From a virus, in the IMG/VR virus record IMGVR_UViG_3300032333_000288, positions 1 to 60,863 of that record: DNA of 60,863 bases, one strand, 5' to 3'. The notes below the pieces were generated by a model that saw only the letters and a program-made list of their open reading frames with translations, was not told the DNA's origin and ran no database searches. Positions within the stretch are counted from its first letter, which is position 1; every line of letters starts with the position of its first letter. The translations under genes and the position numbers were made by a program. Shown here one piece after another: positions 29,276 through 57,462 of the stretch.

Positions 29276-32200
29276 ATGGCGACCCTGCGCGACCTCGTCC
29301 CCGGACTCGATCAATCACTCGCGGGCCTGGTCCCAGGCTCTGGCCCCTCGCCCGTGCAGCAGGGGCTTCGTGGCCCGGCCACGGCCCTGATCGAGGATGA
29401 GGCGGAAGCCGCAGGCATGGGCCAGCTCCGCCGTGGCTTCACCACCGGGCGGCTCCAGGCAGACGCGAACGCGCTGGCCACTGATGAGTCTGCTGCCCGC
29501 GCTGCGGGCGACACTGCTGCAGCCGACGCACTGCGCCTGCGCATCGGCGGGCTCCAGCAGCGCGCCAAGACCTTCGCCCCCACCGAGCAGGACGTGACCC
29601 AGCTTGACTGGCAACCCGGGCGCATCCTCGATTACGGCCTCGCCACGATGGGGCAGGGCGCGGCGAGCATGACGGACCCGCTGGCCGTCGGCGTTGGTGC
29701 GAACGCTGCAGCCGGCGTGCTCGGCCTCATCCCTCACCCGCTGGCACAGGGCGGCGCGAAAGCGCTGCGTGCCGGCGGCATCCTGGGTGGCGGCTACCTG
29801 AACTACCGCCAGAACAAGGGCGAGTTCTACAACCAGGCAGTCGAAGATCCGACGCTGCTGGCCGGCAGGACCGCGCAGGAGATCGACCGGGCCGGCACGG
29901 GCCACGGCGTTGTGGCCGGCGCTCTGGACACCGCACTGCCGGCCTGGGCGGCGAACCGCATCGTGCCGGGCGGCACGAAGGTGCTGTCAGGGCTGGGCGG
30001 CGGGATGAAGGCCGCGCTCGGCCTGGGCGGCGAGGCAGTGACCGAGACACTGCAGGGCGAGAGCAAGCGCGGCATCCTGGGTCTCCTGAACCCGCAGCGC
30101 GACACCAGCGGCGACGCGGCGGAGCGCTGGAACGACGCCGTGGGTGGCGCCATCGGCGCGGCGCCGATCGTGGGCTTGAGCCACCTGGGCGACAAGGCGA
30201 ACGCCCGCCTGGGCGTGAAGGACGACACCTCCAGCGACGACGTGAGCGGCGGCAAGACGATGCCCGGGGCACCGAAGCGCGAGAAGCTCACCGACTCCCT
30301 GAAGCGCGGCGCGGCGAAGTACACCGACGACGACGCAGCAGAGAAGTGGAACGAGACCCTGCAAGGGCTGCACAACCCCGACCAGGAAGTCGCCACGACC
30401 GAGCAGCACGCTGCCCTGCTGAAGGAGCTGGGCGGGCGCGCGGCAAAGGGCGACACCGTCGCGCAGCAGCACATCGACGCGCTGAACAAGCTCGACCCCG
30501 CGGACAGCGCCACGTGGTACGGCGCACCGCAGCGTGACGCCGCCTACGAGCACATCCTGGGCGACGGCACGGACCACGAGAAGGTCATCGAAGCCTACAA
30601 GGGCCGCAAGCTGAACGCGCAGGGCGGCAGCGACACGGCCCCGGTGCGGCTCGCGGCCAGCATCCTGAGTAGCTCGCTGCCCGAGAACGCCGACCAGGCG
30701 CTGCACGCGGAGGCGAAGGACATCGCCCGCGAGCTGGCCAGCTTCGCCGACGTGGCGGAAGGACGCGGCAAACTGCACGACCCGCTCAAGGCGCAGGGTG
30801 TGGCTCAGCGCATTGCTGACGTGTTCCCCGGCAAGACCGCCGCCGCGCTGGTGGCGAAGGTAGCTACGGCCATCGGCGTCGAGACCACCCCGCTGTTCAA
30901 GCAGCTCCAGCAGAACCTCGCCGGGGCGGCAGACATCGCGAACGTGAAGAAGAGCGGGCGTACCAGCCGCGCCGCCGTGGGCGATCAGCTCGTGGCCCTG
31001 ATCCCCGCGAGCAAGCAGCTAGCCCTGCGCAACGAAGGTATCGACCTGACCAGCCCGGCCTACAAGGCAGCGCTGGTGGACTACGTCGAGCAGCTCGGCA
31101 AGGCGATCAGCTACGGCGCCACGGACAACAAGGGTGAGCCTATCGCCGTGTCCCCGTCGGCCTACGCGAAGCTGACAGCGAAGGTCGGCAGTGAGGCCGC
31201 GGTAGCGATGCTGGACATGGTGTCGCCCGGCAAGATCATCGAGAAGGAGTCGGACGCACCGAAAGAGAACGGCGGCGGGACGACCGGGCCGGCGAAGGAG
31301 AGCGACCGCGAAGGCGAGAAGCGCAGCGGTGGCTTGGGCGACGACCTGGAGATGGACGACTTCGACATCGACGCCGCGAAGAAGAGCATGGAGCGGGCGC
31401 CGGGGGCGAAGCTGTACCTGACGAAGGGCAAGCGCGGGATCGCCACTGCCGGCGACACCGAGGGTGCGCACCCGTTTGTCCGGGACAAGAAGACCGGCAA
31501 CTTGCCGAAGCTCTCACTCGCTGACGACACGGACACGAAGTCCGGCTTCAACACGCTCGAAGCAATGGAAGAGCGCGCGTACGAGATGCTGACCGGCAAG
31601 CCGTGGGAGCCACTGCCAGGCGACGATCTGAAGGACATGGAGACCTACTGGACCTCCATGCAGAAGACAGTAGAAGAGGGCGGCACGAAGGTGACACGCC
31701 GCACGACGCAGGAGCTGTCGCCCGGCCAGTACATCAAGAACGACGACCCGAAGGCTCAGCCCGTGCTCGGCATCGGCAGCTTCCGCATCCGCCGCATCTC
31801 GGCGAAGGACGTGATGGACGACCGCGGCGTGGCCGCTGGCCGGCGCACGACGCTGCTGCGGCAGTATCTGGCGCAGGACGGTGTACTCGGCGAGGACGAC
31901 CGGACCCTGACGCAGCTCGCCACGCTCAGCCGCAAGATTCGCGAGCTGACCGATGAGGCTCAGCCGCAGCCCGTGAAGCGCAACCCCCAAGCCGTGCCCC
32001 TGGCCGGTCAGGGCGTAGCCGAACTCGAAGAGCTGAAAGCCCAGCGCACCGAGGTGATCGCCAAGCTCGCCAAGAAGATCGGCGTCGAGGCGAAGGACGA
32101 CGCCACCGTCGAAGACCTGGCGAACGCCTACTTCGGCCAGCGCTTCCTGATCACCGCCGAGCAGATGGCCGAGAAGGACCAGCTCCGCCTGAACCAGGCG

Positions 32201-35200
32201 GAGGTGCTGGCGATGATCCGCAAGGGCAACCAGTACATCAACAAGAGCACGGACCCGACGCTCGGCCCCTCGCCCGTCGAGGTGCAGGCGGACATGAACC
32301 TGATCCGCTTCCGCTCGAAGTCCGCGATCACGAAGAGCGACGAGAAGCGCGGCATCGCCGTGATCCCTGCCAGCGAGCTGGTGGCCTGGGTCTTCGCCAA
32401 CCGCAACGACTACAAGGGCGTTGAGGGCGGAAAAGAGAGTGCGTTGGAGTACCGCAACGCGCTGATGGAAGGCATCGGCGCGCTGGCCGAGGGCGGCTAC
32501 ATGGACGCGCTGCCGTTCATGATCAACGCCGAAGGCAACATCGAGCGCTTCGGCTCGAAGAAGCATGGCGGGTTCCCGCCATCGCTGAAGCTGGGCGGCA
32601 TGCGGCAGGCGGACCTGAACGAGGGCTCGAAGCGCATCGTCGCGGCGATTGTCGCCACGGACAAGGCGGAAAAGGAGATCCTCGACAAGATGACGCCGAA
32701 GCAGCGCGCCAAGTACGAGGCGGCTGCTGAGAAGAAGCGGAACGACGAGGTCGCCCGAGACCAGGAGAAGACTGAGAAGGTCAAGAACACGGACCCGGAT
32801 GAGCTGGTGAGCGAAGGGCGCGAGCACAACCCGAAGACCGCTGCGCGCCCAGTCGCTCAGCGCTCGCTCGATCTCGTGCCACCGTCTAAGGGCGAAGCCG
32901 GGCCTCACCCTGTCCTCATGTCCACGCCGGCCAAGGAAGCCCCGCCTGCACGGTACTGGGACGCGCCTGCGGCAGAGCCGACGGAGCCGGCGGCGTTCAC
33001 GAACCCTGAGTTCGACAACCCGCTGGGCACGCCCGACCGGCGGTTCGTGGGCGGCACCCAGATCCAGGGCGATCTGCCGGGCATGCCCGAAGCGCCCGGC
33101 CCGAACACCGGGGTCGAGCGCCCCTACACCACAGCCGTCGGCGTGTCCCGGCCCAGCCAGAAGGTGGACGAGAAGCGCTCAGGGCGCTTCCCCGTCGCCC
33201 CCGAGACCGTCGAGACCCGCCGCGACAACGTCGAGCGCACCCAGCTCGACTGGGACCTCAAGGCCCAGGACGGCGGGGTGCCGACGGACTTCACAGCCGC
33301 CCAGATGGCGAAGGCCGTCGCTGACGCGGCGCTGACAGAAGGCGAGACCCGCCCACTGACCCCGACGAACGCCACGGCCCGCGCGCCGGCCCTGGCGCGG
33401 GAGATCCTGTGGCAGCTCGACAGCTTCGACGGCCTGTTTGAGGGCAAGCGGGTGACGAGCGACGTGCCTGCCGACCCGCAGGGCGCCTTCCAGCGCATCC
33501 AGCGCCTCGTGGCGGCACTTTCTCGACCCGTCAGCACCACAGGTAGCCGCCCGGCCGGCGGGAGGCACTACGCGGCTCCCTTGGCCCTGATCCTGACTCC
33601 GGCGAACGTGAAGGTCCTGATCAGCAAGGCGCAGAACAAGGCCGCTGCCGGCCCGCGCCTGGAGCGCATGCGCGACAAGGTAGCACGAGCGCTGCTGCTG
33701 GCAGACGACAACGACCTGTCCCTGGCTGGGCGGGTGGTGGCTGCGCGGGCACTGCTGGGCAACGACGCCCTGACCAGCGCGACGATGAAGGCCCCGCTGA
33801 AGGTCATGGCTGACCGGGAAGAGAAGCGGCAGGCGGACGCGGCGGCGGACCAGCACCTCGAAGAGGTGGCGCGGAAAGCGAAGATTGCTGCGGTGCAGCA
33901 GAAGCGTTCAGCGAAGCCCATGCAGGCGAAGACTGAGGCGCCCGCAGAGGTCGACCTGTTCGGCCCTACGCCCAACGGGCGCCGCGCGCTGAAGACCGCG
34001 AGCATAGACACGCTGCTGAACGCCCGGGAGAAGGCCGTCAACCAGTTGCGCTACGACGACGCAGGCGTTGAGTACAACCCGGAACTCGATACGGATGCCG
34101 CAGTCATCCTTGCAACGCGCGTGGAAGCGCCGCCGGATGACGAGTTTTCGGCCGGGGTACTGCGAGCTATCGACGCTATCGACCACGAGATCAAGCGGCG
34201 TCGCGGCGAGGTGGGGACGCAGGCGAAGACCGAGCCGGCCAAGGTCAAGCTCAACGGCACGAGCGCCTACGTCGCCAAGGATCAAGCCAAGGCGGACAAG
34301 GCCAACAAGTTCATTGGGCGCGGCTCGGAGAGCAGCAGCACGGCCCAGTACGCCAAGGACTTCGGCCCCGCTGCCAACACCGGGACCTACGTCAGCACCG
34401 ACCGCGTGTTCGTGTCCGCTGAGGGCAAGCGCGAAGGGCGCGTGAACCCTGACCGCGCGGAGCTGGACAAGGCGGTGGCCGCGGGCGTGACGTTCATCAC
34501 CGACGACGCTCCGAACCGCGAGCGCGGCTACAACGTCGGTGAGCGGCAGATCGCGAAGTACCTGACCGAGAACGGCTACGCCGAGACGGCGCCGGGCGAG
34601 TGGATGAAGACTGAGGCCCCCGCCCAGACTCAGCGCTCCGTCCGCGACATGCCGATGAACTACAAGGACGGCACGAACGGCATGCGCATGCGCCCAGCGC
34701 TGGTCGGCAAGTCCACAATGGACCTGATCCGTGAGGGTGTCCGCACGGCCACGACCGGCGCGCTGGAGCGCTTCCGCGGTCTGAAGGTGGGCGACGTGTT
34801 CACGGTCGTGGGTGCAGACGACGAGCGCATCCAGGTGCGCATGACCCAGAACCCGCGCCCGGTGTCTGAGCTGACGCCGAGCGAGTGGGCCACGCCCGAG
34901 GGCTGGGCGACGGTGAACTACGCGAAGTACAAGGATGCATGGCAGATCAAGTACGAGCTGGTGAATAAGCCGGTTGCGACAGAGGCCCCGGCCCCCAAGC
35001 TCAACGCCATGCGCGGCCCGGCCCGGCCCACTCGCAAACTCAACGCCATGTCCGCGCGCATCCACAGCGAGCTGGGCCGGGCAGGATTCCCCGCCACGCA
35101 CGACTCGCCGATCCGGCACGAAGGTCGGTTCGACTGGCGCGAGCACGCCATGAAGGGCGAGGGCGCCATGGTCAAGGGCGCCGGCACGTACCTCAGCACT

Positions 35201-38200
35201 TCTGAGAGCGTGAACAAATACTACAAGGGGATGTTCACGGCGAAAGTCGAACCCGAATACGACTACGTGGCGGCTGACCGCATCAATACTCAGTTCATCA
35301 AAGCCGTCGGCGCGCGGACTGAAGTCAGCAGCGACGCCGCGAAGATCGCCGTCGGCAAGGGCAAAGAAGAAGCCGTCGCCTTCGTTCAACGGACCCTGGA
35401 CGAGCACCTCAAAGATGGGCCCGAGTCCACGATCTCGCAGGCCGAGTTCGATAAGTGGACAGAGCGCTACGAAAAATTGTTGAGGGCTATCAAAGCCATG
35501 CCGGAAAGCGAGATGCGTCCAAAGCGCATAGACGGGTTCCGAAACGACAAGTCCCCCACCTACGAAGTCTCCGTGAACATCCCGCAGGAGCAGCTCCTGA
35601 ACTGGGACAAGCCGCTGAGCGAGCAGAGCACGAAGATGCAAGAGGTGGCGAAGAAGGTGGCGGGCGAAGGGAAGATCGCAGACCTCTCACTGAAATGGAA
35701 ACAGGACGCCGACGATCTGTACACGGCAACTGACCCCGACACTTTCGCCATCTACACAATCCAGCAAGTCACCCCGAGCAAGTTCATCCTCACCGATGGG
35801 ATCGAAGAGATCGTCGGGATATACAGCTCACTCGAACAAGCGAAGCACGAAGCCGAGAAAGTGACGTTCGCCGGGCCTGACTCCGACAGGAAGATACTCA
35901 ACTACAGGGGCGAAGACTTCTACCGCGCGCTCTCGGACCACTTCGCTCCGGGCGACCGCGACACGGGCGACCGGCAGGCCAGCGACTACCTCCAAGCCGC
36001 TGGCATCCTGGGCCACCGCATGAAGGCCAGCGCCAAGGACGGCACGCAGAATCCAAACTACGTCATCTACGACGACAGCAAAATCACGACGAACTACGTT
36101 CACTTCAACGCCGAGACCGCGACCAAGGTCTCGTCGGACGCCGAAGTGGCCGAAGCCCTTGCCATGCTGAAGAAGACCCTCGGCCCGAAGATCATGGTCG
36201 AGGTCAGCAAGGACTTCCCGAATGCGGGCGAGTACCTCGAAGCTGAGCGGCTCATCAAGTTGTCCACGGTCATCGGCCCAGGCGTGCTCTCCGTGGCGTA
36301 TCACGAGGCACTGCACGACGCCTGGGCCAACGTGCTGAAGAACCACCCCGGCGCACGTGAGGCGCTGAGCAAGGTGATGTCGAGCCCTACCATGCTGGCC
36401 CGTCTTCAGGACAAGCTGGCGAACGAACCCGATGCCCTGGCGGCTATCGCCGACGGTGCGCCGCACGCAGCCGAAGAGCGCGTCGCCTACGCCTACCAGT
36501 TCTGGGCCGCGGGCGAGCTGGACGTGGACAAGCCGGCGACGACTCTGTTCGCAAAATTCCGCAAGATGCTGCGCAAGGTGCTGGGCATGGTGCGCGAGAG
36601 CGAGACCGCGCTCGACATCATGACCGCCCTGCACGACGGCAAGCTGGCTGAGCCCAGCGCTGCCGGGCGCGTGCTCAAGGAGATCATGGCCCGCGAGACC
36701 TGGAACGCGGACGTGAAGCGCAAGTTCGACAAGGTGATCCAGAACAGCTTCGCTGCGATCGCACCGAGCAACGACGTGCTGCGCCGCGAGACCCTCAGCG
36801 GCACGGCCCGGCTGCTGGGCAAGATCATGTTCTCGAACCCGGGCGAAGAGGCTGCGGGCGGCGACCAGGGCTACCTGAACGCACGCAAGCAGAAGATCGC
36901 CCAGTACACGAACTACCTGCACGCAGCCCTGAAGGGGCTGAGCGAGCGCGATCTGGCCGAGGTGGCGAAGCAGCTCCAGCTCAAGACACCTCTGGAGCAG
37001 ATCACCTACGCCCCAGTGCGCGACGCCGTCAAGGGTGTGCGTGCGCTGACGAAGCGGTACTACGAGTACGCCACCCAGAAGTCGCCGCACGGTGAGCCGG
37101 TGCTGAAGCTGGAGTTCCTCGGCGAAGACCACTACCCGCGCGTGTGGGACTTGCGCAAGCTCGTCGACGACGGTGACGGGCAGGCGAAGTTCATCGCCAT
37201 GCTGCTGCAGCCGAAGTACAAGAAGCCCATGGCCGCTGCGATGGCGATGGCGAACGCAGGCCGCAAGGTCATGACCCCCGTAGAGGTGGGCATGGCGATG
37301 GTGCGGGGGGAGAAGATCAACGCCGCATACACCGCCGAGCAGATTGCCCTGAAGATGTACGAGCGCCTCGTCGAGAAGAACGGCGTGGACGACATGTCCG
37401 CGGACAGCGACCGCATGGACGACGAGCTGCTCGACCCGTTCTTCGCCAGCCAGAAGGAGCGCAGCTTCAAGTGGCTGGACGACGCGGATGTGGAGCCGTT
37501 CCTGGACAAGGACGTTGTCTCGGCGATGACCCGCTACCTACACCAAGGCATCCGCGCTGTGGAGTTCAGCCGGCGCTTCGGCGAGCGCGGCAAGTTCCTG
37601 CGCCCGCTGCTGGTTATGAAGGGCGACCCGGTGTTCAACTCCGAGACCGGCAAGGTCGAACCGGCGGAGACCCACGGGCGCATCGCCAGCGAGATGTACG
37701 AGAGCCTGAAGAAGGCCGGCACGAAGGGCAAGGAGGCGGACCTGATCGTCGCCCGGCACATGGACGACGTGCGCAAGGCAGTCGCCGCGCATGAAGGCTC
37801 TCTAGGCCACACGATCAGCCCGACATGGCGCAAGTTCAGCAGCGCGGCGATGGCCTACCAGAACCTGCGCCTGCTGCCGCTGAGCCTGTTCGCTGCGTTC
37901 GGCGACACGATCGGCATCGCAGCACGTTTCGGCGAAGGTGGCGGGAAGCTGGCTTTCCAGGCGTTCACGCAGGGCCTGCGTGACGTGTACGCCCGCTGGA
38001 AGGACGCCGCCAGCGACATGCCGGCTGAGCGCCAGAAGACGGTCTGGGAGAACATCGCCGAGATGGTCGGCGCGGTGGACAGCCACATGCTCCTGGAACA
38101 GATGGGCAACGCTGCTGCCAGCGAGTTCACGACGGACTGGGCACGCAAGGCGAACCGTGCGCTGTTCATGGCGAACGGCCTGACCGCCTGGGACCGCAGC

Positions 38201-38929
38201 ATGCGGGTCTCAGCCACGAAGGCGGCGGTGCTCTTCCTTCAGCACCACGCCAGCCTGCCTGACAAGCAGCACAGCGCCCGCTGGCTCAAGGAGCTGGGGC
38301 TCAAGGTCGAGGACATCCCACTGGATGCCGACGGCAAGCTGATCTACGACCGGCACGTGCTGGCCGCGGAGAAGGGCATCTCCCTGGAGGACGCGACGAA
38401 GCAGGCCGAGAAGGTCCACTACGCCATCACCCGCTGGGTCGAGGGCGCGGTGCTGACGCCGACGGCAGGCCAGCGCCCGACCTGGGCGAGCGACCCACAC
38501 TACGCGGTGCTCTTCCACCTGAAGCAGTTCACGTACAGCTTCCACCACACGATCCTGAAGCGGGCGTTCAACGAGGCGGGCCACGGGAACATGGCCCCGA
38601 TCGGCGCGCTGATGATGGCTGTGCCAACGATGGTGGCTGCGGATCTGGTCAAGGGTGTCGTGGTGGGTGGTGGCTCGCTGCCAGCGTACATGCAGCAGTG
38701 GGACCTGGGCGATCACATGATGCACGGGTTCAACCGCGCCGGCCTGGGCGGCATCGGCCAGTTCGGCATCGACGGGCTGCGCGATCCGTTCAGTGTGCTG
38801 GGGCCGACGGTGCAGCAAGTATCGGAGTTCATCCTGAACCCGCTGGACATCGGGCACAACCTGCACAATGCAGTGCCGGGGGCTCGGTACATCAAGGGGC
38901 TCCCCGATCTGGCACGCGTGGCTGAGTGA
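29276..38929 (+). CDS. giant polyvalent virion protein, 3,217 aa
   Basis: The largest gene of the window, with no internal stop across 9.6 kb. The N-terminus (1-320) is Gly/Ala-rich with amphipathic helices. Around residues 1655-1770 a segment TAQYAKDFGPAANTGTYVST ... TFITDDAPNRERGYNVGERQ is typical of phage polyvalent proteins. Near residue 1942, HDSPIRHEGRFDWREHAMKG ... GAGTYLSTSE looks like an ADP-ribosyltransferase-type fold of these proteins. A metallopeptidase-like AYHEALHDAW (His2343, Glu2344, His2347) follows. The last 700 residues are helical and match the large-polyvalent-protein C-terminal region, with WDRSMRVSATKAAVLFLQHH and YAVLFHLKQFTYSFHHTILK. I infer that it is packaged, ejected and acts in the host; none of the activities is proven. 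It is not recognisably an N4-type virion RNA polymerase. Confidence 0.85.
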   Translation: MATLRDLVPGLDQSLAGLVPGSGPSPVQQGLRGPATALIEDEAEAAGMGQLRRGFTTGRLQADANALATDESAARAAGDTAAADALRLRIGGLQQRAKTFAPTEQDVTQLDWQPGRILDYGLATMGQGAASMTDPLAVGVGANAAAGVLGLIPHPLAQGGAKALRAGGILGGGYLNYRQNKGEFYNQAVEDPTLLAGRTAQEIDRAGTGHGVVAGALDTALPAWAANRIVPGGTKVLSGLGGGMKAALGLGGEAVTETLQGESKRGILGLLNPQRDTSGDAAERWNDAVGGAIGAAPIVGLSHLGDKANARLGVKDDTSSDDVSGGKTMPGAPKREKLTDSLKRGAAKYTDDDAAEKWNETLQGLHNPDQEVATTEQHAALLKELGGRAAKGDTVAQQHIDALNKLDPADSATWYGAPQRDAAYEHILGDGTDHEKVIEAYKGRKLNAQGGSDTAPVRLAASILSSSLPENADQALHAEAKDIARELASFADVAEGRGKLHDPLKAQGVAQRIADVFPGKTAAALVAKVATAIGVETTPLFKQLQQNLAGAADIANVKKSGRTSRAAVGDQLVALIPASKQLALRNEGIDLTSPAYKAALVDYVEQLGKAISYGATDNKGEPIAVSPSAYAKLTAKVGSEAAVAMLDMVSPGKIIEKESDAPKENGGGTTGPAKESDREGEKRSGGLGDDLEMDDFDIDAAKKSMERAPGAKLYLTKGKRGIATAGDTEGAHPFVRDKKTGNLPKLSLADDTDTKSGFNTLEAMEERAYEMLTGKPWEPLPGDDLKDMETYWTSMQKTVEEGGTKVTRRTTQELSPGQYIKNDDPKAQPVLGIGSFRIRRISAKDVMDDRGVAAGRRTTLLRQYLAQDGVLGEDDRTLTQLATLSRKIRELTDEAQPQPVKRNPQAVPLAGQGVAELEELKAQRTEVIAKLAKKIGVEAKDDATVEDLANAYFGQRFLITAEQMAEKDQLRLNQAEVLAMIRKGNQYINKSTDPTLGPSPVEVQADMNLIRFRSKSAITKSDEKRGIAVIPASELVAWVFANRNDYKGVEGGKESALEYRNALMEGIGALAEGGYMDALPFMINAEGNIERFGSKKHGGFPPSLKLGGMRQADLNEGSKRIVAAIVATDKAEKEILDKMTPKQRAKYEAAAEKKRNDEVARDQEKTEKVKNTDPDELVSEGREHNPKTAARPVAQRSLDLVPPSKGEAGPHPVLMSTPAKEAPPARYWDAPAAEPTEPAAFTNPEFDNPLGTPDRRFVGGTQIQGDLPGMPEAPGPNTGVERPYTTAVGVSRPSQKVDEKRSGRFPVAPETVETRRDNVERTQLDWDLKAQDGGVPTDFTAAQMAKAVADAALTEGETRPLTPTNATARAPALAREILWQLDSFDGLFEGKRVTSDVPADPQGAFQRIQRLVAALSRPVSTTGSRPAGGRHYAAPLALILTPANVKVLISKAQNKAAAGPRLERMRDKVARALLLADDNDLSLAGRVVAARALLGNDALTSATMKAPLKVMADREEKRQADAAADQHLEEVARKAKIAAVQQKRSAKPMQAKTEAPAEVDLFGPTPNGRRALKTASIDTLLNAREKAVNQLRYDDAGVEYNPELDTDAAVILATRVEAPPDDEFSAGVLRAIDAIDHEIKRRRGEVGTQAKTEPAKVKLNGTSAYVAKDQAKADKANKFIGRGSESSSTAQYAKDFGPAANTGTYVSTDRVFVSAEGKREGRVNPDRAELDKAVAAGVTFITDDAPNRERGYNVGERQIAKYLTENGYAETAPGEWMKTEAPAQTQRSVRDMPMNYKDGTNGMRMRPALVGKSTMDLIREGVRTATTGALERFRGLKVGDVFTVVGADDERIQVRMTQNPRPVSELTPSEWATPEGWATVNYAKYKDAWQIKYELVNKPVATEAPAPKLNAMRGPARPTRKLNAMSARIHSELGRAGFPATHDSPIRHEGRFDWREHAMKGEGAMVKGAGTYLSTSESVNKYYKGMFTAKVEPEYDYVAADRINTQFIKAVGARTEVSSDAAKIAVGKGKEEAVAFVQRTLDEHLKDGPESTISQAEFDKWTERYEKLLRAIKAMPESEMRPKRIDGFRNDKSPTYEVSVNIPQEQLLNWDKPLSEQSTKMQEVAKKVAGEGKIADLSLKWKQDADDLYTATDPDTFAIYTIQQVTPSKFILTDGIEEIVGIYSSLEQAKHEAEKVTFAGPDSDRKILNYRGEDFYRALSDHFAPGDRDTGDRQASDYLQAAGILGHRMKASAKDGTQNPNYVIYDDSKITTNYVHFNAETATKVSSDAEVAEALAMLKKTLGPKIMVEVSKDFPNAGEYLEAERLIKLSTVIGPGVLSVAYHEALHDAWANVLKNHPGAREALSKVMSSPTMLARLQDKLANEPDALAAIADGAPHAAEERVAYAYQFWAAGELDVDKPATTLFAKFRKMLRKVLGMVRESETALDIMTALHDGKLAEPSAAGRVLKEIMARETWNADVKRKFDKVIQNSFAAIAPSNDVLRRETLSGTARLLGKIMFSNPGEEAAGGDQGYLNARKQKIAQYTNYLHAALKGLSERDLAEVAKQLQLKTPLEQITYAPVRDAVKGVRALTKRYYEYATQKSPHGEPVLKLEFLGEDHYPRVWDLRKLVDDGDGQAKFIAMLLQPKYKKPMAAAMAMANAGRKVMTPVEVGMAMVRGEKINAAYTAEQIALKMYERLVEKNGVDDMSADSDRMDDELLDPFFASQKERSFKWLDDADVEPFLDKDVVSAMTRYLHQGIRAVEFSRRFGERGKFLRPLLVMKGDPVFNSETGKVEPAETHGRIASEMYESLKKAGTKGKEADLIVARHMDDVRKAVAAHEGSLGHTISPTWRKFSSAAMAYQNLRLLPLSLFAAFGDTIGIAARFGEGGGKLAFQAFTQGLRDVYARWKDAASDMPAERQKTVWENIAEMVGAVDSHMLLEQMGNAAASEFTTDWARKANRALFMANGLTAWDRSMRVSATKAAVLFLQHHASLPDKQHSARWLKELGLKVEDIPLDADGKLIYDRHVLAAEKGISLEDATKQAEKVHYAITRWVEGAVLTPTAGQRPTWASDPHYAVLFHLKQFTYSFHHTILKRAFNEAGHGNMAPIGALMMAVPTMVAADLVKGVVVGGGSLPAYMQQWDLGDHMMHGFNRAGLGGIGQFGIDGLRDPFSVLGPTVQQVSEFILNPLDIGHNLHNAVPGARYIKGLPDLARVAE

Positions 38930-47520: not shown

Positions 47521-49629
47521 TCACTTGCTGTAGTTGAAGGCGTGTCCACCCTCGGAAGACAGCGGGAGGTCTTTGCACCAGTCGAGCGGTACGGTCATGC
47601 GCTTGAGCATCTTGGCCGACGCAGACGACGCCTGAGCCTTCTTGACGCAGGCCACCATCTCGTCGTGCGTGGTCATCACCATGCGCATCGACTTGCTGAG
47701 GTCGAGCATCTGGTACATGACGATGATGCGGGCCAGGGCCTGCACGATGTTCTCGCAGAGGAGACCGCCGTAGATTTTCTTGCGGATGGGCTGGCCCTTC
47801 AGCGTCGAGGCGTAGGTCCACTCGTCCCACCCCTTGTCGCCGACGACCTTTCTCAGGTCGGGGTAATGCAGCCGCATGCCGTTCGGCAACCAGATGCAGT
47901 CTTTCTCCCAGTTCAGTGGGCCGTGGCTGCCTTCGCGGCCAGCAGCCATGTCTTCGATGATGTTGTTGCAGATGTCCCAGCCCTTGGCGATCTTGTCGTT
48001 CTTGCGGCGGTAGGTCTGCACCCAGCGCTTCGCTTCTTCGAGCGTGATGAAGATGGGCGGGCCACCGAGCGCACCCTTCGCCAGGGTGATCTGGAGCTTG
48101 GTTGGCCCCATCTGGAAGCCGAGGCCGAGGGTCAGCACTTTGCCGACGAAGCGCTCAGTCTTGTCGTCCTTGGTGATCGTGCGCCCATAGATGAGCGAGG
48201 CCATCAGGCAGTATGGGTCGGCGCCGGTCTTCGCGTCGCTGGCCTTGAACGCAGCCAGGATGTCGTTCTGCTTCCAGAGCCATGCGTTGACCCGTGCCTC
48301 GATTTGGCCTGAGTCACCGACGGCCAGCTCGTAGCCAGGTGGGGCTTCGATGGACTCGCGCAGGGCGCCGCCACGCTTGAGGTTCTGCAGGTTCCGTTTG
48401 TCGCCGCCGCCCAGCCGGTGCGTGTGCGCGCGGCTGTAGGCGTAGTAGGCGGGCAGAGTGCCATGCTTCGCTGAGGTCAGCATGCGCTCGGCGCGGGTGA
48501 TGTTCGTCGTGCTCTTGACGGCAATACGGGTGTCCACGAGCAGGCGCAGACGCTCGGACTTTGCTGTCATCTGCTTGATGCCCTCCGTGGTGTTCACGTC
48601 GGGCACAGCCGTCCAGCGCGTGGTGTCGTCAGGCAGGTTGACGAACTCCACGTCATCCTTGGCAAAGGCATAGGCCCATTTGCCGTCTTCGTCAGCCTCA
48701 CGCGCAGCTTTGTCCTTCTTCATCCAGGCTGGGCTGAGCTTGACCGGCGGGTCCACGCCTTCTGCGATCAGCAGATCGGCGAAGCGGTTCGTGCTGCCCA
48801 CGATGCGCTTGACGATCAGAATGTCGCGCTCCTTGCCTTCGAGTGCGCGTTCGACCTTTGTCTTGAGCACGGTCTTGTCGGTGTAGAACGGCTTCGGGTC
48901 GAGCACGGAGAGGAAGAGGGTCTCGCGTTCGGCCAGCTCGCGCGCCAGCTCGGCTTCGACGCGGGCCACGTTCACACGCAGGACCGGCTCGCAGAACATG
49001 CGGACCAGCACGTCGATGAGGTCGATCTCTTCGCTGGGCAGCGCGTAGACCATCTCTTGGAATACGCGCAGAGTCTCGTCGCCGTCGTTCAGGCAGTACG
49101 TCGAGGCTTCGGCATAAAGGGCCGGCGACCAAACGAGAATGCCTTTGGTCTTTTCGAGTACGTCGTGAATCTTGCCTGCTCCGCCGTAGAAGACTGAGAC
49201 CTCATCCAGGCCGGCGCCGATTTCGTTGGAGTGGATGCCGCGGGCCATGGACAGAGTGTCGTAATAGAAACTCGGAACCACACCGTAGTGGTGGCTGAGA
49301 ATGAGGCCGTCGAATTGGGTGTGGTGGCAGAGCAGGCCATGGGTGCCCCAGTTGATCTTGCGGAGTTCGGCTTTGATCTTGTTCGGCGGGATGATGCGGG
49401 CCGGCTTCAGGCCGACCTTCAGATACATCATCTGCGCCTTGAAGCGCGGGTCGCGGACGTATTCGGAAGTGGACAGTTTGGAAAGCGTGTAGTCCTGGTC
49501 GTAGTAGGTTTCTATGTCTACTACAACGAGTCTGTTCCAATCAACTTCTTTGGCTTGAAATGCAGGGCGGGCAAAATCCGGAGCGATGCGGCTAGTGACC
49601 TTACGAAGAGTGTTTTGCCAAGCGTTCAT
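47521..49629 (-). CDS. DNA polymerase, family A, with proofreading domain
   Basis: The replicative polymerase, 702 aa from ATG 49629, whose A overlaps the stop of the HNH gene (ATGA). The frame is open to 49749 but inside that gene. Exo I is LVVVDIETYYDQDY with Asp38 and Glu40. Pol motif A reads VGDSGQIEARVNAW near residue 438, motif B KVLTLGLGFQMGPTK near 505, and motif C MVMTTHDEMVACV near 654. The ribosome-binding site is weak, so expression may depend on coupling. It forms the core of the replication block with helicase, ligase and exonuclease. Confidence 0.94.
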   Translation of the reverse strand: MNAWQNTLRKVTSRIAPDFARPAFQAKEVDWNRLVVVDIETYYDQDYTLSKLSTSEYVRDPRFKAQMMYLKVGLKPARIIPPNKIKAELRKINWGTHGLLCHHTQFDGLILSHHYGVVPSFYYDTLSMARGIHSNEIGAGLDEVSVFYGGAGKIHDVLEKTKGILVWSPALYAEASTYCLNDGDETLRVFQEMVYALPSEEIDLIDVLVRMFCEPVLRVNVARVEAELARELAERETLFLSVLDPKPFYTDKTVLKTKVERALEGKERDILIVKRIVGSTNRFADLLIAEGVDPPVKLSPAWMKKDKAAREADEDGKWAYAFAKDDVEFVNLPDDTTRWTAVPDVNTTEGIKQMTAKSERLRLLVDTRIAVKSTTNITRAERMLTSAKHGTLPAYYAYSRAHTHRLGGGDKRNLQNLKRGGALRESIEAPPGYELAVGDSGQIEARVNAWLWKQNDILAAFKASDAKTGADPYCLMASLIYGRTITKDDKTERFVGKVLTLGLGFQMGPTKLQITLAKGALGGPPIFITLEEAKRWVQTYRRKNDKIAKGWDICNNIIEDMAAGREGSHGPLNWEKDCIWLPNGMRLHYPDLRKVVGDKGWDEWTYASTLKGQPIRKKIYGGLLCENIVQALARIIVMYQMLDLSKSMRMVMTTHDEMVACVKKAQASSASAKMLKRMTVPLDWCKDLPLSSEGGHAFNYSK

Positions 49630-50054
49630 GTTTTGTTTCGTGAATTGGGCGTAAAGACTGCGTCGTACGTCAGTGTGTTTCGCCTGTGTCGCCAGAGGCG
49701 ATGGTGTAGAGTCGTCGGCAGAATTCGTAGCTTTTCGGCCCACTCCCAAGTCTTGAGCGTCTGCCCTCGGTATGTAATGTTTAGGGTGTAGTTGCGGTTT
49801 CGAGATTGAGTTCGTTTGTCGGCCCAGCGGCAGTTGTTTCTTGAGTAGCTGCGTTTGTTGTCGCGACGATCTAAAGTTGTTCCGTCAGGACGAAGACCCA
49901 TTGACGCTACAAAACCTTCATAGGTAAGCCACGATGAGGGAACAGTGATTCCTCTTGCACCGTAATAGGCAAAGTCTGTCGCGTTCGGGTTGAGGCAGCG
50001 GTTTTTCATCATCTGCCAAGACCGATAAGTAGGCTGATGTACGTTCTTCTTCAC
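49626..50054 (-). CDS. HNH homing endonuclease-like protein, between helicase and polymerase genes
   Basis: A 142-aa protein, GTG start overlapping the helicase stop (GTGA), stop overlapping the polymerase start. It has the phage HNH pattern: YRSWQMMKNRCLNPNATDFA, YYGARGITVPSSW, TTLDRRDNKRSYSRNNCRWA and then NRNYTLNITYRGQTLKTWEW, a region that resembles NUMOD-type DNA-binding helices. It is related to the protein at 55626. The local sequence is less GC-rich than its neighbours, a sign of recent arrival. It may spread by cutting the helicase-polymerase junction of relatives. Confidence 0.85.
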   Translation of the reverse strand: MKKNVHQPTYRSWQMMKNRCLNPNATDFAYYGARGITVPSSWLTYEGFVASMGLRPDGTTLDRRDNKRSYSRNNCRWADKRTQSRNRNYTLNITYRGQTLKTWEWAEKLRILPTTLHHRLWRHRRNTLTYDAVFTPNSRNKT

Positions 50055-51457
50055 ACCGCTGCCTCCTTCGCCGGGCGTTTGATCCTGTACGCCCCGGCAG
50101 TCAATGTCTCGAACATGCCGAGCAGGTTCGCCATGCGAGCGCCCTTGCCCATGCAGTTTGTGTAGGCCCAAGCGTCGGCCTCGCAGTCCTCGGCCAGGAT
50201 GACGATGGTCTCGGTCTTCTGCGTCTGGCCAATGCGGCGCTGGCGTGAGGATGCCTGAATGAACAGGGCGGTGTCGTGCGTGGGCGAGGACCAGATCGTC
50301 GAGGTGCCACGGGTCAGAGTCTGCCCGTGGCCGACAGTTTTCGGGTGAGCGAACAGGGCGTCGAACTCGCCGTTCTGGTAGCGCTGCACGTAGGCTAGGC
50401 GGTCAGCGTCGCTGGTGCCGCCGTCGAAGACTGCGTACTTCAGGCCGCGCTTGTCGACTTCAGCGACGAGCAGATCACGCTGGTGCTTCCACATGAACAA
50501 CACGAGCGGATGTACACGCTGTTCGACCAGGTCGAGGATCATCTCGTAGCGCCCAGTGTCGATGACATGGTACTGGTCAGGCGACGAGTAGACCGCACCG
50601 CTGGCGACTTGGAGTAGCTTTGTGGCCACAGCAGCAGCGTTGATGGCGGTGATGCCACCAGCCTTGCCCAGGTTCAAGAGCTGGGTCGCGGCCATCTCTT
50701 CATAGGCTCGGCGCTGAGTTGCCGACATCGTGTAGCTCAGCGTGTACTGGTGGTTCTCAGGGATGTCGGCGCAGTCGTCGAGCCGGTGGCGAATCGTGAT
50801 GTCGGAGAGCAGGCTGAACACTGCTTCTTCGGCACCGTCCTTGTCCTGCCACTCGATCATCTTCGAGCCGTGGCCGACCTGGACGGGCGTGCACACGGAC
50901 TGACGGAAGGGGAAGTACAGCTTGCCCAGGCGAGCGCCGCCATCGAGCAGCAGGGCCTGGTGCCATACGTCTATGATCGTGCGGCTGTTGGGCGTCGCAG
51001 TCATTGCGGCGCGGTAAGTGAAGTGCTTGACGATCTTGAAGATGGCTTTCGAGCGCTGGCTGTTGTAGTGCTTGAAGGCGTCGCTCTCATCCATGATGAT
51101 CTCGCTGAAGCGGGCGAAGAACGCCTTCGGCTGCTTGGCGAGCCAGTTCACGGCATCATGGTTCGTGATGTAGGCGTCGGCCTTCGTGGCGAACGCCTCG
51201 GCGCGGTTGTTGGCGTTAGCGACGACGGTCTTCAGGCCAGGGGCGAACTTCTTGAAGTCCGCGGCCCACACGGAGCGCAACGTGGAGCGGATGCCGATGA
51301 CGAGGGCACAGCCACCGCCTTTCTTGCGGCGTTTCTCGAAGGCCCAGATGCGCACAGCAGTCTTGCCTGTGCCGGCGTCGCTCATGTCGAAGACGATGGG
51401 CGTCTTGTCGTTGTGCTTGAGGCTGACGACCTGGTGCTTGAATGGCTTGTAGATCAT
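50051..51457 (-). CDS. SNF2-type superfamily 2 helicase
   Basis: A 468-aa DNA-dependent ATPase. Motif I is SDAGTGKT with Lys32 of the P-loop; motif II is IIMDESD near 118-125; motif III is TATPNSR near 155; the second RecA lobe has VLFMWKHQRDLL near 310; motif VI is QASSRQRRIGQT near 400, a SNF2-family Q-x-x-x-R-x-x-R-x-G-Q signature. The likely role is replication or recombination fork remodelling. ATGA coupling upstream. Confidence 0.93.
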   Translation of the reverse strand: MIYKPFKHQVVSLKHNDKTPIVFDMSDAGTGKTAVRIWAFEKRRKKGGGCALVIGIRSTLRSVWAADFKKFAPGLKTVVANANNRAEAFATKADAYITNHDAVNWLAKQPKAFFARFSEIIMDESDAFKHYNSQRSKAIFKIVKHFTYRAAMTATPNSRTIIDVWHQALLLDGGARLGKLYFPFRQSVCTPVQVGHGSKMIEWQDKDGAEEAVFSLLSDITIRHRLDDCADIPENHQYTLSYTMSATQRRAYEEMAATQLLNLGKAGGITAINAAAVATKLLQVASGAVYSSPDQYHVIDTGRYEMILDLVEQRVHPLVLFMWKHQRDLLVAEVDKRGLKYAVFDGGTSDADRLAYVQRYQNGEFDALFAHPKTVGHGQTLTRGTSTIWSSPTHDTALFIQASSRQRRIGQTQKTETIVILAEDCEADAWAYTNCMGKGARMANLLGMFETLTAGAYRIKRPAKEAAV

Positions 51458-53403: not shown

Positions 53404-54510
53404 CTACACGTCAATCTTGATCGTTTCGCCAAAGGGCGCGACCACGTCGGTGGTCATCACCCACATGACGGGGTAAGGTGGTGGCTCCTTCGGGAATGGT
53501 CCCTCACCGTCGGTGAGGTAGATGAAGCAGGCCGGCTTGAGGTCGTTCTTCTTGACGTACTCGAACGGCGGGCGGAAGTCCGTACCGCCACGACCAGGCA
53601 TCTTGAATTCGGGCACCTGGTACTCGTCGTACGTGTCCACCTTCTGCACGCGCGCGTCGCAGTAGATGTTGACCATCTCTTGCGGCTTGGCCATCAGCTT
53701 GATGGCGTTAATCTCGCTACCGAAGGCGTCGAGCTGGAACTGATCGACGGAGCCGCTGGTGTCGATGCTGTTGATGATGCGGCCCATGGCCTCGTTGTGC
53801 AGGCTCGGCAGGTAGTAGCCGAAGGGCACCATGCGGCGTTGTGGCCGGCTCCAGGAGAAGTCGGTCTTCGCGTGCAGCATGGCGAAGCGGCGCAAGCGCT
53901 CGCGCCAGTTCAGTTTGCCGCTGGTCAGCTTCTCGACGAAGCTGGTCATCGAGCCGGGCAGTTTGCCCTGCTTCTTCGCCTCGGTCGCAGCCTGAATGCC
54001 GGCGATCTTCCACTCGACAGCATTCGCTTCAATGGCCGAAGGGTCGCCGGGCTTGAGTGAATCGAGCGCGCCTTGACCCTTACCATTCTTCGCGCCGCCG
54101 CCGGGCGGCATGTCAGGCAGCAAGGTGTAGATGTGATCGGCGGACATGCCATCGAAAGCCTGGTCGTAGAGCCAGGTCTCGCCGATCTTCATGCCGTCGT
54201 TCTTGATGTTCGCGTTGACGACGTAGTCGATGGCGTGATTCCACTTGTCGGGATCGCGCGGGCCGCAGCGGTCGATGTGATCGAGCAGTGCATGCTGGAC
54301 TTCGTGGCAGACCGCCGACATCTGGAGTTCTTCGTCGAGTTCGAGGAAGAACGTGGGGTTGTAGTAGATGGTCGTATTGCTCACGCACAGCGTCTTGATT
54401 GACGGGTCCTCTTCAATCGCCAGGCGCAGGGCCAGGATGCCGTAGAACGGCTGGTCGATGTAGAGCGCCGTGCGGGCACGAATCATCGCAGTGTGAGCAG
54501 CCTTGTTCAC
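53404..54510 (-). CDS. metallopeptidase-like / VWA-domain protein (DUF2201 type)
   Basis: A 368-aa protein, GTG start coupled to the DUF3150 gene (GTGA). The N-terminal domain has CHEVQHALLDH with the zinc motif His69, Glu70, His73 and following HAIDYVVNANIKN. The C-terminal domain is VWA-like with the MIDAS motif DTSGS near 249 and a strand ending YLTDGEGPF. This two-domain layout is the usual partner of a MoxR-type ATPase, which is encoded at 56287. The trio probably forms a metal-dependent chaperone or protease-like complex; substrates unknown. Confidence 0.88.
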   Translation of the reverse strand: MNKAAHTAMIRARTALYIDQPFYGILALRLAIEEDPSIKTLCVSNTTIYYNPTFFLELDEELQMSAVCHEVQHALLDHIDRCGPRDPDKWNHAIDYVVNANIKNDGMKIGETWLYDQAFDGMSADHIYTLLPDMPPGGGAKNGKGQGALDSLKPGDPSAIEANAVEWKIAGIQAATEAKKQGKLPGSMTSFVEKLTSGKLNWRERLRRFAMLHAKTDFSWSRPQRRMVPFGYYLPSLHNEAMGRIINSIDTSGSVDQFQLDAFGSEINAIKLMAKPQEMVNIYCDARVQKVDTYDEYQVPEFKMPGRGGTDFRPPFEYVKKNDLKPACFIYLTDGEGPFPKEPPPYPVMWVMTTDVVAPFGETIKIDV

Positions 54511-55340
54511 TGGTATGCCTTCATCTTGGCCAGGATGGCGTCCGCGGCGTCTGCGGTCTTGGTGCGGGTCTGGGCGTTGGCGCGCAGCGCGTTCGGGCTG
54601 GGCAGCATGGCGTCCAGTTCTTGGCGCAGCTCTTCGAGGATCGGATCGCCGGTGAGGTTGAGTGCTGGCAGGCAGGCCACCAGGTCACGAGCATTCGTGA
54701 TCAGGGTGTCGAAGATGCGCGGATCTTCCTTGCGCAGCGTAGTGCTGATGTGGCCGACGACATCCTGCACGCGCGTGTAGCACTCACGCATAGCCGCTTG
54801 GAACTTGGCGTCGTTCTCGGCAGTGAGTTGTTCACGGATCAGCGCTGTGGCCTCGTCGCCTACGTTGACGCGGAAGTCGTCGGCGCTGGGGATGGGCTTG
54901 AGGCTGATGCGGATGTCGAACTTGTCCGCGATCTGAGCGACCGTCGGGAAGTCCTTGGGGTTGTAGAGCGTGCCCAGGCGCTTCGGCGCAGCAGCCAGAA
55001 GCTGCGGATAGAGCGCGACGAAGTCCTTGCGAAGCTTCTCGTCGGCCAGGCGCATGTGCTTGATGCCTGACGTGTACTCCTGGTACAGGGCTGACGGCAG
55101 GAGCCGGTCGCTGTTGTTATCCCACGGCAAGGTCAGCTTGTTGTGGAACGCGCGCATGGCGCTCGCGCTGGCCGTGAGCGGCTTGAGGTGGGCACGGTCC
55201 ACGAGGGTCTTGCGGAAGTCGCCGCTGTCGCTCGTGGCGTTGTGGGCTTGGGTCACTTCACGAGTGACCTTGCTGTCGATGCGCTGTGCTGTCCACCGGG
55301 AGATGGACAGATTGGCGAGCATGGCTTTGTTTTGCAGCAT
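54507..55340 (-). CDS. DUF3150 family protein
   Basis: A 277-aa helical protein of the DUF3150 family: LANLSISRWTAQRIDSKVTR, FHNKLTLPWDNNSDRLLPSA, YQEYTSGIKHMRLADEKLRK, YNPKDFPTVAQIADKFDIRI, and DFRVNVGDEATALIREQLTA. In phages and bacteria this family is found with MoxR-like ATPases and VWA proteins, as here. AAGGAG lies 6 bases before the ATG. Its transcript leader is the structured region at 55352-55625. Confidence 0.88.
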   Translation of the reverse strand: MLQNKAMLANLSISRWTAQRIDSKVTREVTQAHNATSDSGDFRKTLVDRAHLKPLTASASAMRAFHNKLTLPWDNNSDRLLPSALYQEYTSGIKHMRLADEKLRKDFVALYPQLLAAAPKRLGTLYNPKDFPTVAQIADKFDIRISLKPIPSADDFRVNVGDEATALIREQLTAENDAKFQAAMRECYTRVQDVVGHISTTLRKEDPRIFDTLITNARDLVACLPALNLTGDPILEELRQELDAMLPSPNALRANAQTRTKTADAADAILAKMKAYQ

Positions 55341-55351
55341 GTGGACTCCTT

Positions 55352-55625
55352 ATTGGGTGCGGTCTCTCCCGCCGTCACACGAAATTTCTTGTGCTGTTGC
55401 TTGACGTAAGGGTTGGCTACCTTCTCGCCTCACACTGGTGAATCGTGTATTACCGCTGCTAGGGTGGGCGAACTGCACAGTGCTGGGGAGCGGTCCTACC
55501 GACTCACTGTCACGGCACCCGTTGTTAAGGGATGCTGGAGATTCGTTCCGGCTTCAGCCAGACTCGCCCCTACGTGCTCAGGTCTTCGATCCGCTATAGC
55601 AGGGTGTGCAGTTCACCCATTGAAC
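55352..55625 (-). ncRNA. candidate structured RNA between the HNH and DUF3150 genes
   Basis: The gap has no credible gene but strong secondary structure on the minus-strand transcript. A 14-bp closing stem (55618-55605 with 55479-55466) encloses hairpins at 55561-55548 (CUGGC/GCCGG, UGAA loop), 55535-55515 (GCAUCC/GGGUGC) and 55501-55491 (CGGU/ACCG). In three helices the odd pair is a G-U wobble on the minus strand but an A-C mismatch on the plus strand, which fixes the strand. Downstream, small hairpins (CACA/UGUG, GCGG/CCGC) lead to the AAGGAG of the next gene. No known class matches; group I intron core sequences were not found. Confidence 0.65.
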
Positions 55626-56225
55626 TTAATTTCGTTGCGCTCCGACTGGAGTGAGACAAGCGTCTTTGATTGACCAGCCCATCCTCAGACGAGTGATGAT
55701 TAGCGTGTCGCAGCCACCAAGTTCCCGTGTCCAATCGATCATCAGTTGTGTGCGTCCGCCGGCGGTGAGCTTGCGGTTGTGGCGAGTATTGCGATGCTGT
55801 TCGAGGGGCGTAGCCCAGTAGCAGTTGGCTGGGCTGTAGTCCTTGTTGTTGTTCCGTCGGTCAATAGACGTATTCGGCGGACGCTCTCCCATGTCGTGAA
55901 GGAACAATTCAAAGTCATCCCACCGTTTGCAGACCTTGATGCCACGTCCACCGTAGTGTTTGAAGTCTTTTGACCGTGGGTTGTTGCAACGATCACGCAT
56001 GTTCGTCCACACCCTGTGCAGTGGCGAGCCAGTCAGACCATGTGTACGGCGGATGCAGCCGCACGAAGTTACTGCTCCTGTTCGCAGGCTTTTGCTATCA
56101 GTCGTTTTGAACTTGAAGCAACTGCAAAGACAGATCCAAGATACTCGGCCGTTGTAATGAGGGGCCTGGGCCACAACGGTTAGACGGCCGAAAGTCTCGC
56201 CTACGAGATGGACGGGGTCAGACAT
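55626..56225 (-). CDS. HNH homing endonuclease-like protein interrupting the MoxR-DUF3150-VWA operon
   Basis: A 199-aa protein from ATG 56225 (AGAGG 5 bases upstream; a GTG at 56231 is possible). The N-terminus has a Cys cluster (ICLCSCFKFKTTD, TSCGCIRR) that may bind zinc. The HNH part reads VWTNMRDRCNNPRSKDFKHY, GGRGIKVCKRWDDF, NTSIDRRNNNKDYSPANCYW, as in the protein at 49626. The region is less GC-rich than its flanks. Inserted with the downstream RNA between genes that normally adjoin, it looks like a mobile unit. Confidence 0.85.
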   Translation of the reverse strand: MSDPVHLVGETFGRLTVVAQAPHYNGRVSWICLCSCFKFKTTDSKSLRTGAVTSCGCIRRTHGLTGSPLHRVWTNMRDRCNNPRSKDFKHYGGRGIKVCKRWDDFELFLHDMGERPPNTSIDRRNNNKDYSPANCYWATPLEQHRNTRHNRKLTAGGRTQLMIDWTRELGGCDTLIITRLRMGWSIKDACLTPVGAQRN

Positions 56226-56231
56226 ATGCAC

Positions 56232-56251
56232 CTCTAAGTTAGAGCTTAGAG
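56232..56251 (-). promoter_or_regulatory. perfect inverted-repeat copy of the 20-bp element (site 8)
   Basis: On the minus strand CTCTAAGCTCTAACTTAGAG: arms CTCTAAG/CTTAGAG exact, centre CTCTAA. It ends 6 bases before the HNH ATG, so its last bases are part of the ribosome-binding site. Only the 55-base gap after the MoxR gene separates it from the upstream operon. Confidence 0.65.
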
Positions 56252-56286
56252 TGTAAGACAGAAAAGGTAGGAGCGCAAACCCCCAA

Positions 56287-57462
56287 CTACACGAGAATGT
56301 CTTGATTCGCCAATCCCCATTTTGCGTACCTCCCCGTGCTCAGGATGTTCTTGTCGCGCGCCGTGGCGGCGCGGACGAAGGCCACCTGGATCTCGCGGCT
56401 CAGCCGTTCGACGTAGTCCATGACACGGTCGAAGTTGCTGGCCTTGGTCTTGTCGCTCAGCGTCATGACCACCGCGTGGGTGACAGGCGTGGAGCCCGGC
56501 AGTTGTGCACGCTTCGGATCCATCATGATGCTGTCGATGTCAGGCATGTCCTTGATGTCGCGGACGAAGCCGGTGAACTCGCCAGCGGCGCCTTCACCCA
56601 CGGTGCCCTTGATCAGCTCGAACTTCTCACCGGCGGTGTAGTCGCGCTTGTAGATGCGGTCCACGCCGTACCAGGCGCGCGGCGTCGGGAAGCAGCGCGG
56701 GTTCGCCGTGGTGTCGAAGGCGTGCAAAGCGTGGGTTTTCAGCTTGATGAAGGCACGGATGTGCGGGTGAATATCGTCGTCCGCTGCACGCATCAGCCAG
56801 TCGGTGGAATCCACCTCGTAGTCGATGTGCAGGAAGCGGTTCGCCAGCGGCGCGGCCATCTGGTACGTGATGCCTCGGTCGCCCTGATTGTTGCCAGCGG
56901 CCACGATGCTCCAGTTGTCGGGCAGTTCGTACTGGCCGATGCGGCGGTCGAGGATGAGCTGGTAGCAGGCGCTGGCCACAGCGGGCATGCCTCCGTTCAT
57001 CTCGTCGAGGAACAGGACACCAGGAGCGTCGCCCTTGCGCGGCAGGAAGTCGGCGGGCAACCACTCCATCTGCTTCTTCTTCGTGTCGGGCATGGGGAAG
57101 CCGCGGAGGTCGATGCTGTCGAGCTGGCTCACGCGCACATCGGCGAGTGAGCGCTTCGTGGCCTGAGCGATCTGGCTGACGACGCTGGACTTGCCGGCGC
57201 CCGACGGCCCCCAGATGAAGACGGGTTGCCGATCGTCGAGTAGCTTAGGGAGGACATGAGCAAGAATGGAGGGTTTCACGGATTTGGTTTCCTTGGGTGG
57301 GTTGTAGGTGGCGACGAGATAGCCGATGCCGAAGAACAGTGCGGCGACGAAAGCGAAGGTGCCGACGACGATCAGCAGCAGAACGCGGAATTGCTTGGTG
57401 CGGGACAGGGGAAGGAAGAGAGGCCGGCCGATTTCTTCCTCGTAGCTTTGGTTTTGGTTCAT
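56287..57462 (-). CDS. MoxR-like AAA+ ATPase with an N-terminal membrane helix
   Basis: A 391-aa protein. Walker A is GPSGAGKSS (Lys91), Walker B VLFLDEMN (149-156), sensor 1 AAGNN near 188-192, arginine finger ANRFLH (Arg209). The core is of the MoxR/CobS type and pairs with the DUF3150 and VWA genes downstream. Unusually, residues 27-51 (VLLLIVVGTFAFVAALFFGI and on) form a hydrophobic span after a short polar N-terminus, in the same frame with no break. If the annotated start at 57462 is right, the ATPase is anchored in the inner membrane, cytoplasmic domain C-terminal. Confidence 0.88.
   Translation of the reverse strand: MNQNQSYEEEIGRPLFLPLSRTKQFRVLLLIVVGTFAFVAALFFGIGYLVATYNPPKETKSVKPSILAHVLPKLLDDRQPVFIWGPSGAGKSSVVSQIAQATKRSLADVRVSQLDSIDLRGFPMPDTKKKQMEWLPADFLPRKGDAPGVLFLDEMNGGMPAVASACYQLILDRRIGQYELPDNWSIVAAGNNQGDRGITYQMAAPLANRFLHIDYEVDSTDWLMRAADDDIHPHIRAFIKLKTHALHAFDTTANPRCFPTPRAWYGVDRIYKRDYTAGEKFELIKGTVGEGAAGEFTGFVRDIKDMPDIDSIMMDPKRAQLPGSTPVTHAVVMTLSDKTKASNFDRVMDYVERLSREIQVAFVRAATARDKNILSTGRYAKWGLANQDILV

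Follow-up and report, generated by a model that had tools for sequence, protein, structure and literature searches.

A very probable, previously undescribed functional RNA within a phage AAA+/DUF3150/VWA operon, separate from the HNH gene inserted beside it

Several kinds of structured RNA and mobile gene that have been described in phages and bacteria invite comparison with the locus presented here. Intercistronic RNase III hairpins of the T7 type are long, imperfect sense-strand rods with internal loops that lie between genes of one operon, the phi29 pRNA is a compact phage RNA with a terminal closing helix and a branched apex, the HK022 put RNAs act in cis within phage transcripts, and bacterial Y RNAs of the YrlA type end in a long stem, branch distally and keep MoxR ATPase and VWA protein genes as neighbours. 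Peripheral stem-loops of functional RNAs often vary at a neutral rate. In broad terms, the element dealt with below is a structured RNA of phage intergenic DNA; none of the families described in Rfam 15 accommodates it, and a literature search returned no description of such an element.

The window (the whole stretch of DNA analyzed, i.e., the 60,863-base IMG/VR virus record IMGVR_UViG_3300032333_000288) carries terminase, P22-type portal and DNA polymerase A genes, as well as a minus-strand operon in which an AAA+ ATPase gene, an HNH gene, the RNA element region, a DUF3150-type gene and a DUF2201/VWA gene follow one another, with the genes flanking the RNA element complete on both sides. The DUF3150-type protein has no Pfam or PHROG match of its own, and a search with it led to the relative contig L011, whose corresponding protein is 92% identical. 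Elsewhere in the window, an open reading frame of 3,217 residues without a Pfam hit spans 29276-38929, and a second HNH gene (49626-50171) overlaps the 3' end of a helicase gene; at the latter position the L011 contig carries another gene, about 115 codons long and apparently unrelated. The locus is organized as follows.

56287-57462, minus strand: upstream gene, MoxR-like AAA+ ATPase
55625-56290, minus strand: insertion of about 666 bp holding the HNH gene, located after the AAA+ stop and ahead of the element; absent from L011
55626-56231, minus strand: HNH homing-endonuclease-like coding sequence, a neighbour outside the RNA element
55462-55624, minus strand: structured RNA element of 163 nt, 91% identical in L011 (3584-3746)
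55342-55461, minus strand: spacer separating the element from the DUF3150 start, 120 nt in the window and 18-19 nt in L011; unstructured, unconserved, outside the element
54507-55340, minus strand: downstream DUF3150-type gene, named from an annotated homologue in phage MinM2
53404-54510, minus strand: DUF2201/VWA gene

In L011, the end of the AAA+ gene is followed by the 163-nt element (90.8% identity, no gaps) and then by the start of the DUF3150-type gene, with no HNH gene at the same site. Because this relative keeps the RNA without the HNH gene, the latter is, on the comparison of the two genomes, a separate insertion independent of the RNA element; the HNH protein matches PHROG HNH families and shares ~37-44% identity with HNH genes from many phages, and among nine loci that carry related HNH genes not one contained the element RNA. 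The suggestion that the RNA travels with the HNH gene is thereby refuted. The adjacency of an HNH gene and a structured RNA might also be taken to indicate an intron or a ribozyme-type mobile element carrying the HNH gene, a reading whose likelihood is negligible, as it is contradicted by the empty site (L011 lacks only the HNH insertion and retains the RNA, with no split gene and no exons joined), by the complete flanking genes and by the lack of any group I, group II or ribozyme family match in Rfam on both strands at E<=10. The original prediction had itself reported no group I core, which holds even at that permissive threshold, while its proposal of a ribozyme or riboswitch found no positive evidence and no intron signal. 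Within the HNH insertion (window 56232-56290), a promoter-like TTGCGC-17 nt-TACACT arrangement can be seen by eye upstream of the HNH start, which stays below the scan threshold.

The downstream flank differs as well. The distance from the element to the DUF3150 start is ~120-121 nt in the window and 18-19 nt in L011, a sixfold difference, and the spacer (55342-55461) folds like shuffled sequence (z -0.54) and is unalignable with its L011 counterpart. As L011 is without the HNH insertion, and as the spacer differs, cannot be aligned and has a random-like fold, the element, judged by these flanks, is a unit with sharp borders, independent both of the HNH gene and of what remains of the originally reported region. 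The extent of 55352-55625 initially assigned to the structure has, thus, to be cut back, since 55352-55461 lies outside the element, in spacer that is random-like and missing from L011. A stretch of that unconserved spacer (55436-55455, minus strand, TAATACACGATTCACC) loosely resembles a T7-type promoter, probably by chance.

Folded as minus-strand RNA, the 163-nt core (55462-55624) reaches a z of -3.51, with 0 of 200 shuffles folding as well, and is less distinct on the plus strand (z -1.86), whereas for the originally reported 274-nt region the minus strand is only slightly ahead of its shuffles (z -1.82); the expectation of better-than-shuffled folding thus held for the core and only weakly for the region as first drawn. 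The predicted fold, which is the same in L011 (z -2.29), is a rod made of a 15-bp closing stem and helices of 4, 5, 5 and 7 pairs, set apart by internal loops or a bulge, and topped by two apical hairpins. The 14-bp long-range stem seen earlier is, therefore, present, with its inner 14 pairs at a probability of ~1.0 also within 463 nt of native context and a fifteenth pair if the outer U-A is counted, while the multibranch region with three hairpins gives way to the rod with two apical ones. The parts of the element are listed below.

55605-55619, minus strand: 5' arm of the closing stem (15 bp), pairing probability ~1.0 in native context except for the outermost pair
55465-55479, minus strand: 3' arm of the closing stem; 3 pairs differ in L011, 3/3 of them still paired as minus-strand RNA
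55591-55595, minus strand: 5' arm of helix 3, pairing with 55489-55493; its pair 55593/55491 reads C-G in the window but U-A in L011, a double compensatory change
55494-55590, minus strand: conserved core, i.e., the upper rod and the apical hairpins 55537-55570 and 55515-55535; 3 substitutions per 83 nt outside the variable tip
55548-55561, minus strand: variable hairpin tip, 5/14 positions different from L011 (approximately the neutral rate); contains the sole broken pair
55594-55620, minus strand: mini-ORF of 8 codons (MGELHTLL + stop) that overlaps the 5' arm; 2/2 L011 differences synonymous, significance doubtful

By fold energy, the element takes 12th place among 1,014 windows of equal size from the same phage, and, with 11 others above it, the rank was dropped as proof of the element: the decisive evidence is conservation, fold energy alone being unexceptional. 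Three other windows of this phage (8281-8443, 20761-20923 and 38881-39043) fold much better than shuffles, with z of about -4 to -5, two of them on both strands.

Silent sites of the neighbouring genes provide a neutral yardstick by which conservation of a non-coding RNA shows up even though no more than two genomes are compared. Fourfold-degenerate sites of seven nearby genes differ between the window and L011 by 24-39%, whereas the element differs at 15 of its 163 positions (9.2%), and its core outside the hairpin tip at 3/83 (3.6%), so that silent sites have changed three to four times faster than the element. The binomial P for 15 or fewer differences is 1.5e-6 at the lowest neutral rate, 8e-13 at 33% and 1e-17 at the top of the range, values to be read as indicative, since fourfold sites stand in for neutral non-coding DNA and the ends of the block were set by the alignment. 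The first hairpin tip, on the other hand, has changed at the neutral rate (5/14). No preserved open reading frame crosses the element, all six frames containing stops or 8-10 amino-acid changes per ~54 codons and being thus either interrupted or altered as much as the DNA itself, which bears out the earlier statement that there is no matching ORF. Selection at the sequence level thus seems close to certain, and the figures show, as far as sequence comparison goes, that the element is non-coding and under strong purifying selection, its conservation against the neutral rate (9.2% vs 24-39%) being the kind that marks a structured non-coding RNA under selection.

The same yardstick bears on two further explanations. 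One is that of a functionless chance fold sitting in a recently exchanged segment of DNA: phage genomes are mosaic, with identity differing among segments, and other windows of this phage fold equally well by energy; none of the seven neighbouring genes, however, shows such low silent divergence, the tip has drifted at the neutral rate while the core has not, and the changes keep pairs, all of which makes this explanation highly improbable. The other, improbable to a slightly lesser degree, is that ribosomes which have terminated on the upstream gene restart on the 8-codon ORF, open the closing stem and thereby alter the fold and downstream expression. The mini-ORF is kept in L011 with its two differences synonymous, and its ATG lies 5 nt past the HNH stop in the window and 6 nt past the AAA+ stop in L011, but a good ribosome-binding site is missing, conservation extends over the entire stretch in any case, and a pair of synonymous changes would come up about one time in ten.

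The two sequences were also compared pair by pair. Seven base pairs are altered, 6/7 of which are still paired in the minus-strand RNA, one by a double change (C-G to U-A) and five by exchanging Watson-Crick pairing with a minus-strand wobble; the seventh, located in the variable tip, is broken. When the same substitutions were placed at random, one broken pair or fewer was seen in 0.7-0.8% of trials; random mutants folded as well as the real counterpart in 28% of cases starting from the window sequence (compared with L011) and in 3.6% in the reverse direction. The covariation anticipated for relatives is thin (the double change and five one-sided wobble exchanges, set against one broken pair), and it rests on two sequences, for which a shuffle control is powerless. 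As for strand-specific wobbles, the minus-strand fold does hold five G-U pairs and zero A-C pairs, but such a single-sequence count is partly circular, because the folding program permits G-U only on the strand being folded; the independent test of strand-specific pairing is the comparison with L011, where the bias among altered pairs (5 minus versus 1 plus, one-sided P ~0.11) is only suggestive. Taken together, selection on the minus-strand RNA fold of the element is likely.

A function at the DNA level, either as a single-strand hairpin or protein site (in replication, transcription initiation or recombination) or as the target site of the HNH enzyme, is a further explanation. G-T wobbles are tolerated in single-stranded DNA too, and the HNH gene directly adjoins the element, just as free-standing homing genes often adjoin their target; the strand asymmetry of the fold and wobbles, the variable tip and the conserved internal-loop core nevertheless suit RNA better, and we regard a DNA-level role as rather improbable.

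How widely the element is distributed was addressed by several searches. Rfam 15 gave no match to it on either strand, at the gathering threshold or at E<=10, and searches of 50,697 phage records, of 72,556 plasmids and of E. coli genomes yielded no similar DNA. Pattern scans, which reach close relatives only, recovered from IMG/VR nothing but the L011 contig with three core patterns, and that contig plus one match in L031, unconfirmed by the covariance model, with a fourth, shorter one; a loop-pattern scan of one genome per species across 84,980 species gave 22 matches, 0 of which were confirmed by the covariance model. The covariance model itself, run over whole contigs of relatives, found only the window and L011, and L012, L013 and L021, three relatives that are more distant and share the gene order, are without the element. 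In L021, an array of telomere-like TAACCC repeats occupies 3790-3831, where the AAA+ gene adjoins the DUF3150 gene. The same junction in another of the more distant relatives (L014 4755-4960) holds two elements in succession, each closed by a long stem (GGGGGTGGGTGCTG...CAGCATTCCACCCCC and CCCAAAAGATAGATCGG...CCGATCTTTCTTTTGGG), which fold with a z of -4.27 and have no match in the phage records or Rfam; they were considered as homologues, and their ends do look similar (GTTCAAcGGG, CACCC...TTTC), but their sequence similarity to the present element is not above that of shuffles, and the candidate was dropped. The original idea of an unclassified minus-strand non-coding RNA has, accordingly, gained support from L011 (conservation without coding, structure-preserving substitutions) and from the missing Rfam match, and the minus strand of 55462-55624 very probably harbours a real, previously undescribed functional RNA.

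What such an RNA might do is best approached through its surroundings. The block has stayed contiguous though both of its flanks have changed (the HNH gene directly upstream, a 120-nt versus an 18-19-nt spacer downstream), and neither phage has a promoter-like site or terminator directly flanking it, so the element is probably transcribed as part of the operon message. The reading we favour, at a probability of roughly 0.4, is that of a self-contained structured RNA of ~155-163 nt within the AAA+/DUF3150/VWA operon which would act autonomously, its autonomy being read solely from the changes in its flanks. The long closing stem would bound and protect the element, RNase III-type cutting of the rod is possible, and the almost invariant core loops might be bound by a protein of the phage or its host, or by some other partner. 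A self-contained RNA is preferred over a switch on the ribosome-binding site of the next gene because the element is intact while its upstream neighbour and downstream distance have changed; direct masking of that site, in particular, is argued against by a DUF3150 distance of ~121 nt in the window versus 19 nt in L011.

The autonomous RNA is preferred over cis-acting intercistronic control, in which the rod, never a separate RNA, would set the relative expression of the AAA+ and DUF3150-type genes, be it through processing by RNase III, as a stability barrier or as a translational operator to which a protein binds. Such control is a tentative but serious competitor: the element is in sense orientation, fits closely between the stop codon of the preceding gene and the start codon that follows, ends in L011 ~19 nt before the DUF3150 start with the ribosome-binding region partly paired in the model, and is a long imperfect rod like known phage intercistronic RNase III substrates. 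Against it, the element has remained intact although the distance to DUF3150 varies sixfold (19 vs 121 nt) and the HNH gene now separates it from AAA+, its core conservation far exceeds the needs of a simple RNase III hairpin, and the three distant relatives share the gene order without any such element. An extension of the autonomous reading, namely a trans-acting phage RNA of a new family, released from an early operon and forming a ribonucleoprotein with the MoxR-like AAA+ ATPase, DUF3150, the VWA protein or a host factor, is conceivable yet unlikely.

If the element works together with the AAA+/VWA operon, it could offer a handle on the part which that module plays in phages; structured phage RNAs are under-sampled because few relatives have been sequenced. 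The practical result is a correction: the HNH gene is one thing and the RNA another.

Set against the described systems, tRNA or tmRNA (no ARAGORN match) and a retron non-coding RNA (the reverse transcriptase PF00078 is absent from the record, controls being positive) were rejected, as was identity with a Y RNA, for which TROVE/Ro60 (PF05731) is absent from the record (control genome positive), though the host might encode it, and there is no Rfam or tRNA-like match, even though the terminal long stem, branched distal part and MoxR/VWA neighbourhood are shared. The phi29 pRNA, with its closing helix and branched apex, and the cis-acting HK022 put RNAs are likenesses, unlike the element in genomic position, in having no linked function here and in giving no Rfam covariance match. 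Free-standing phage HNH homing endonuclease genes are a parallel to the neighbouring gene only (PHROG HNH matches, an empty site in L011), as the HNH gene lies outside the RNA, which is present at the site without the insertion. The T7-type intercistronic RNase III hairpins are alike in their place between genes of one operon, sense strand and long imperfect rod with internal loops, whereas the present element is larger (163 nt), carries two apical hairpins and has highly conserved unpaired bases in its core.
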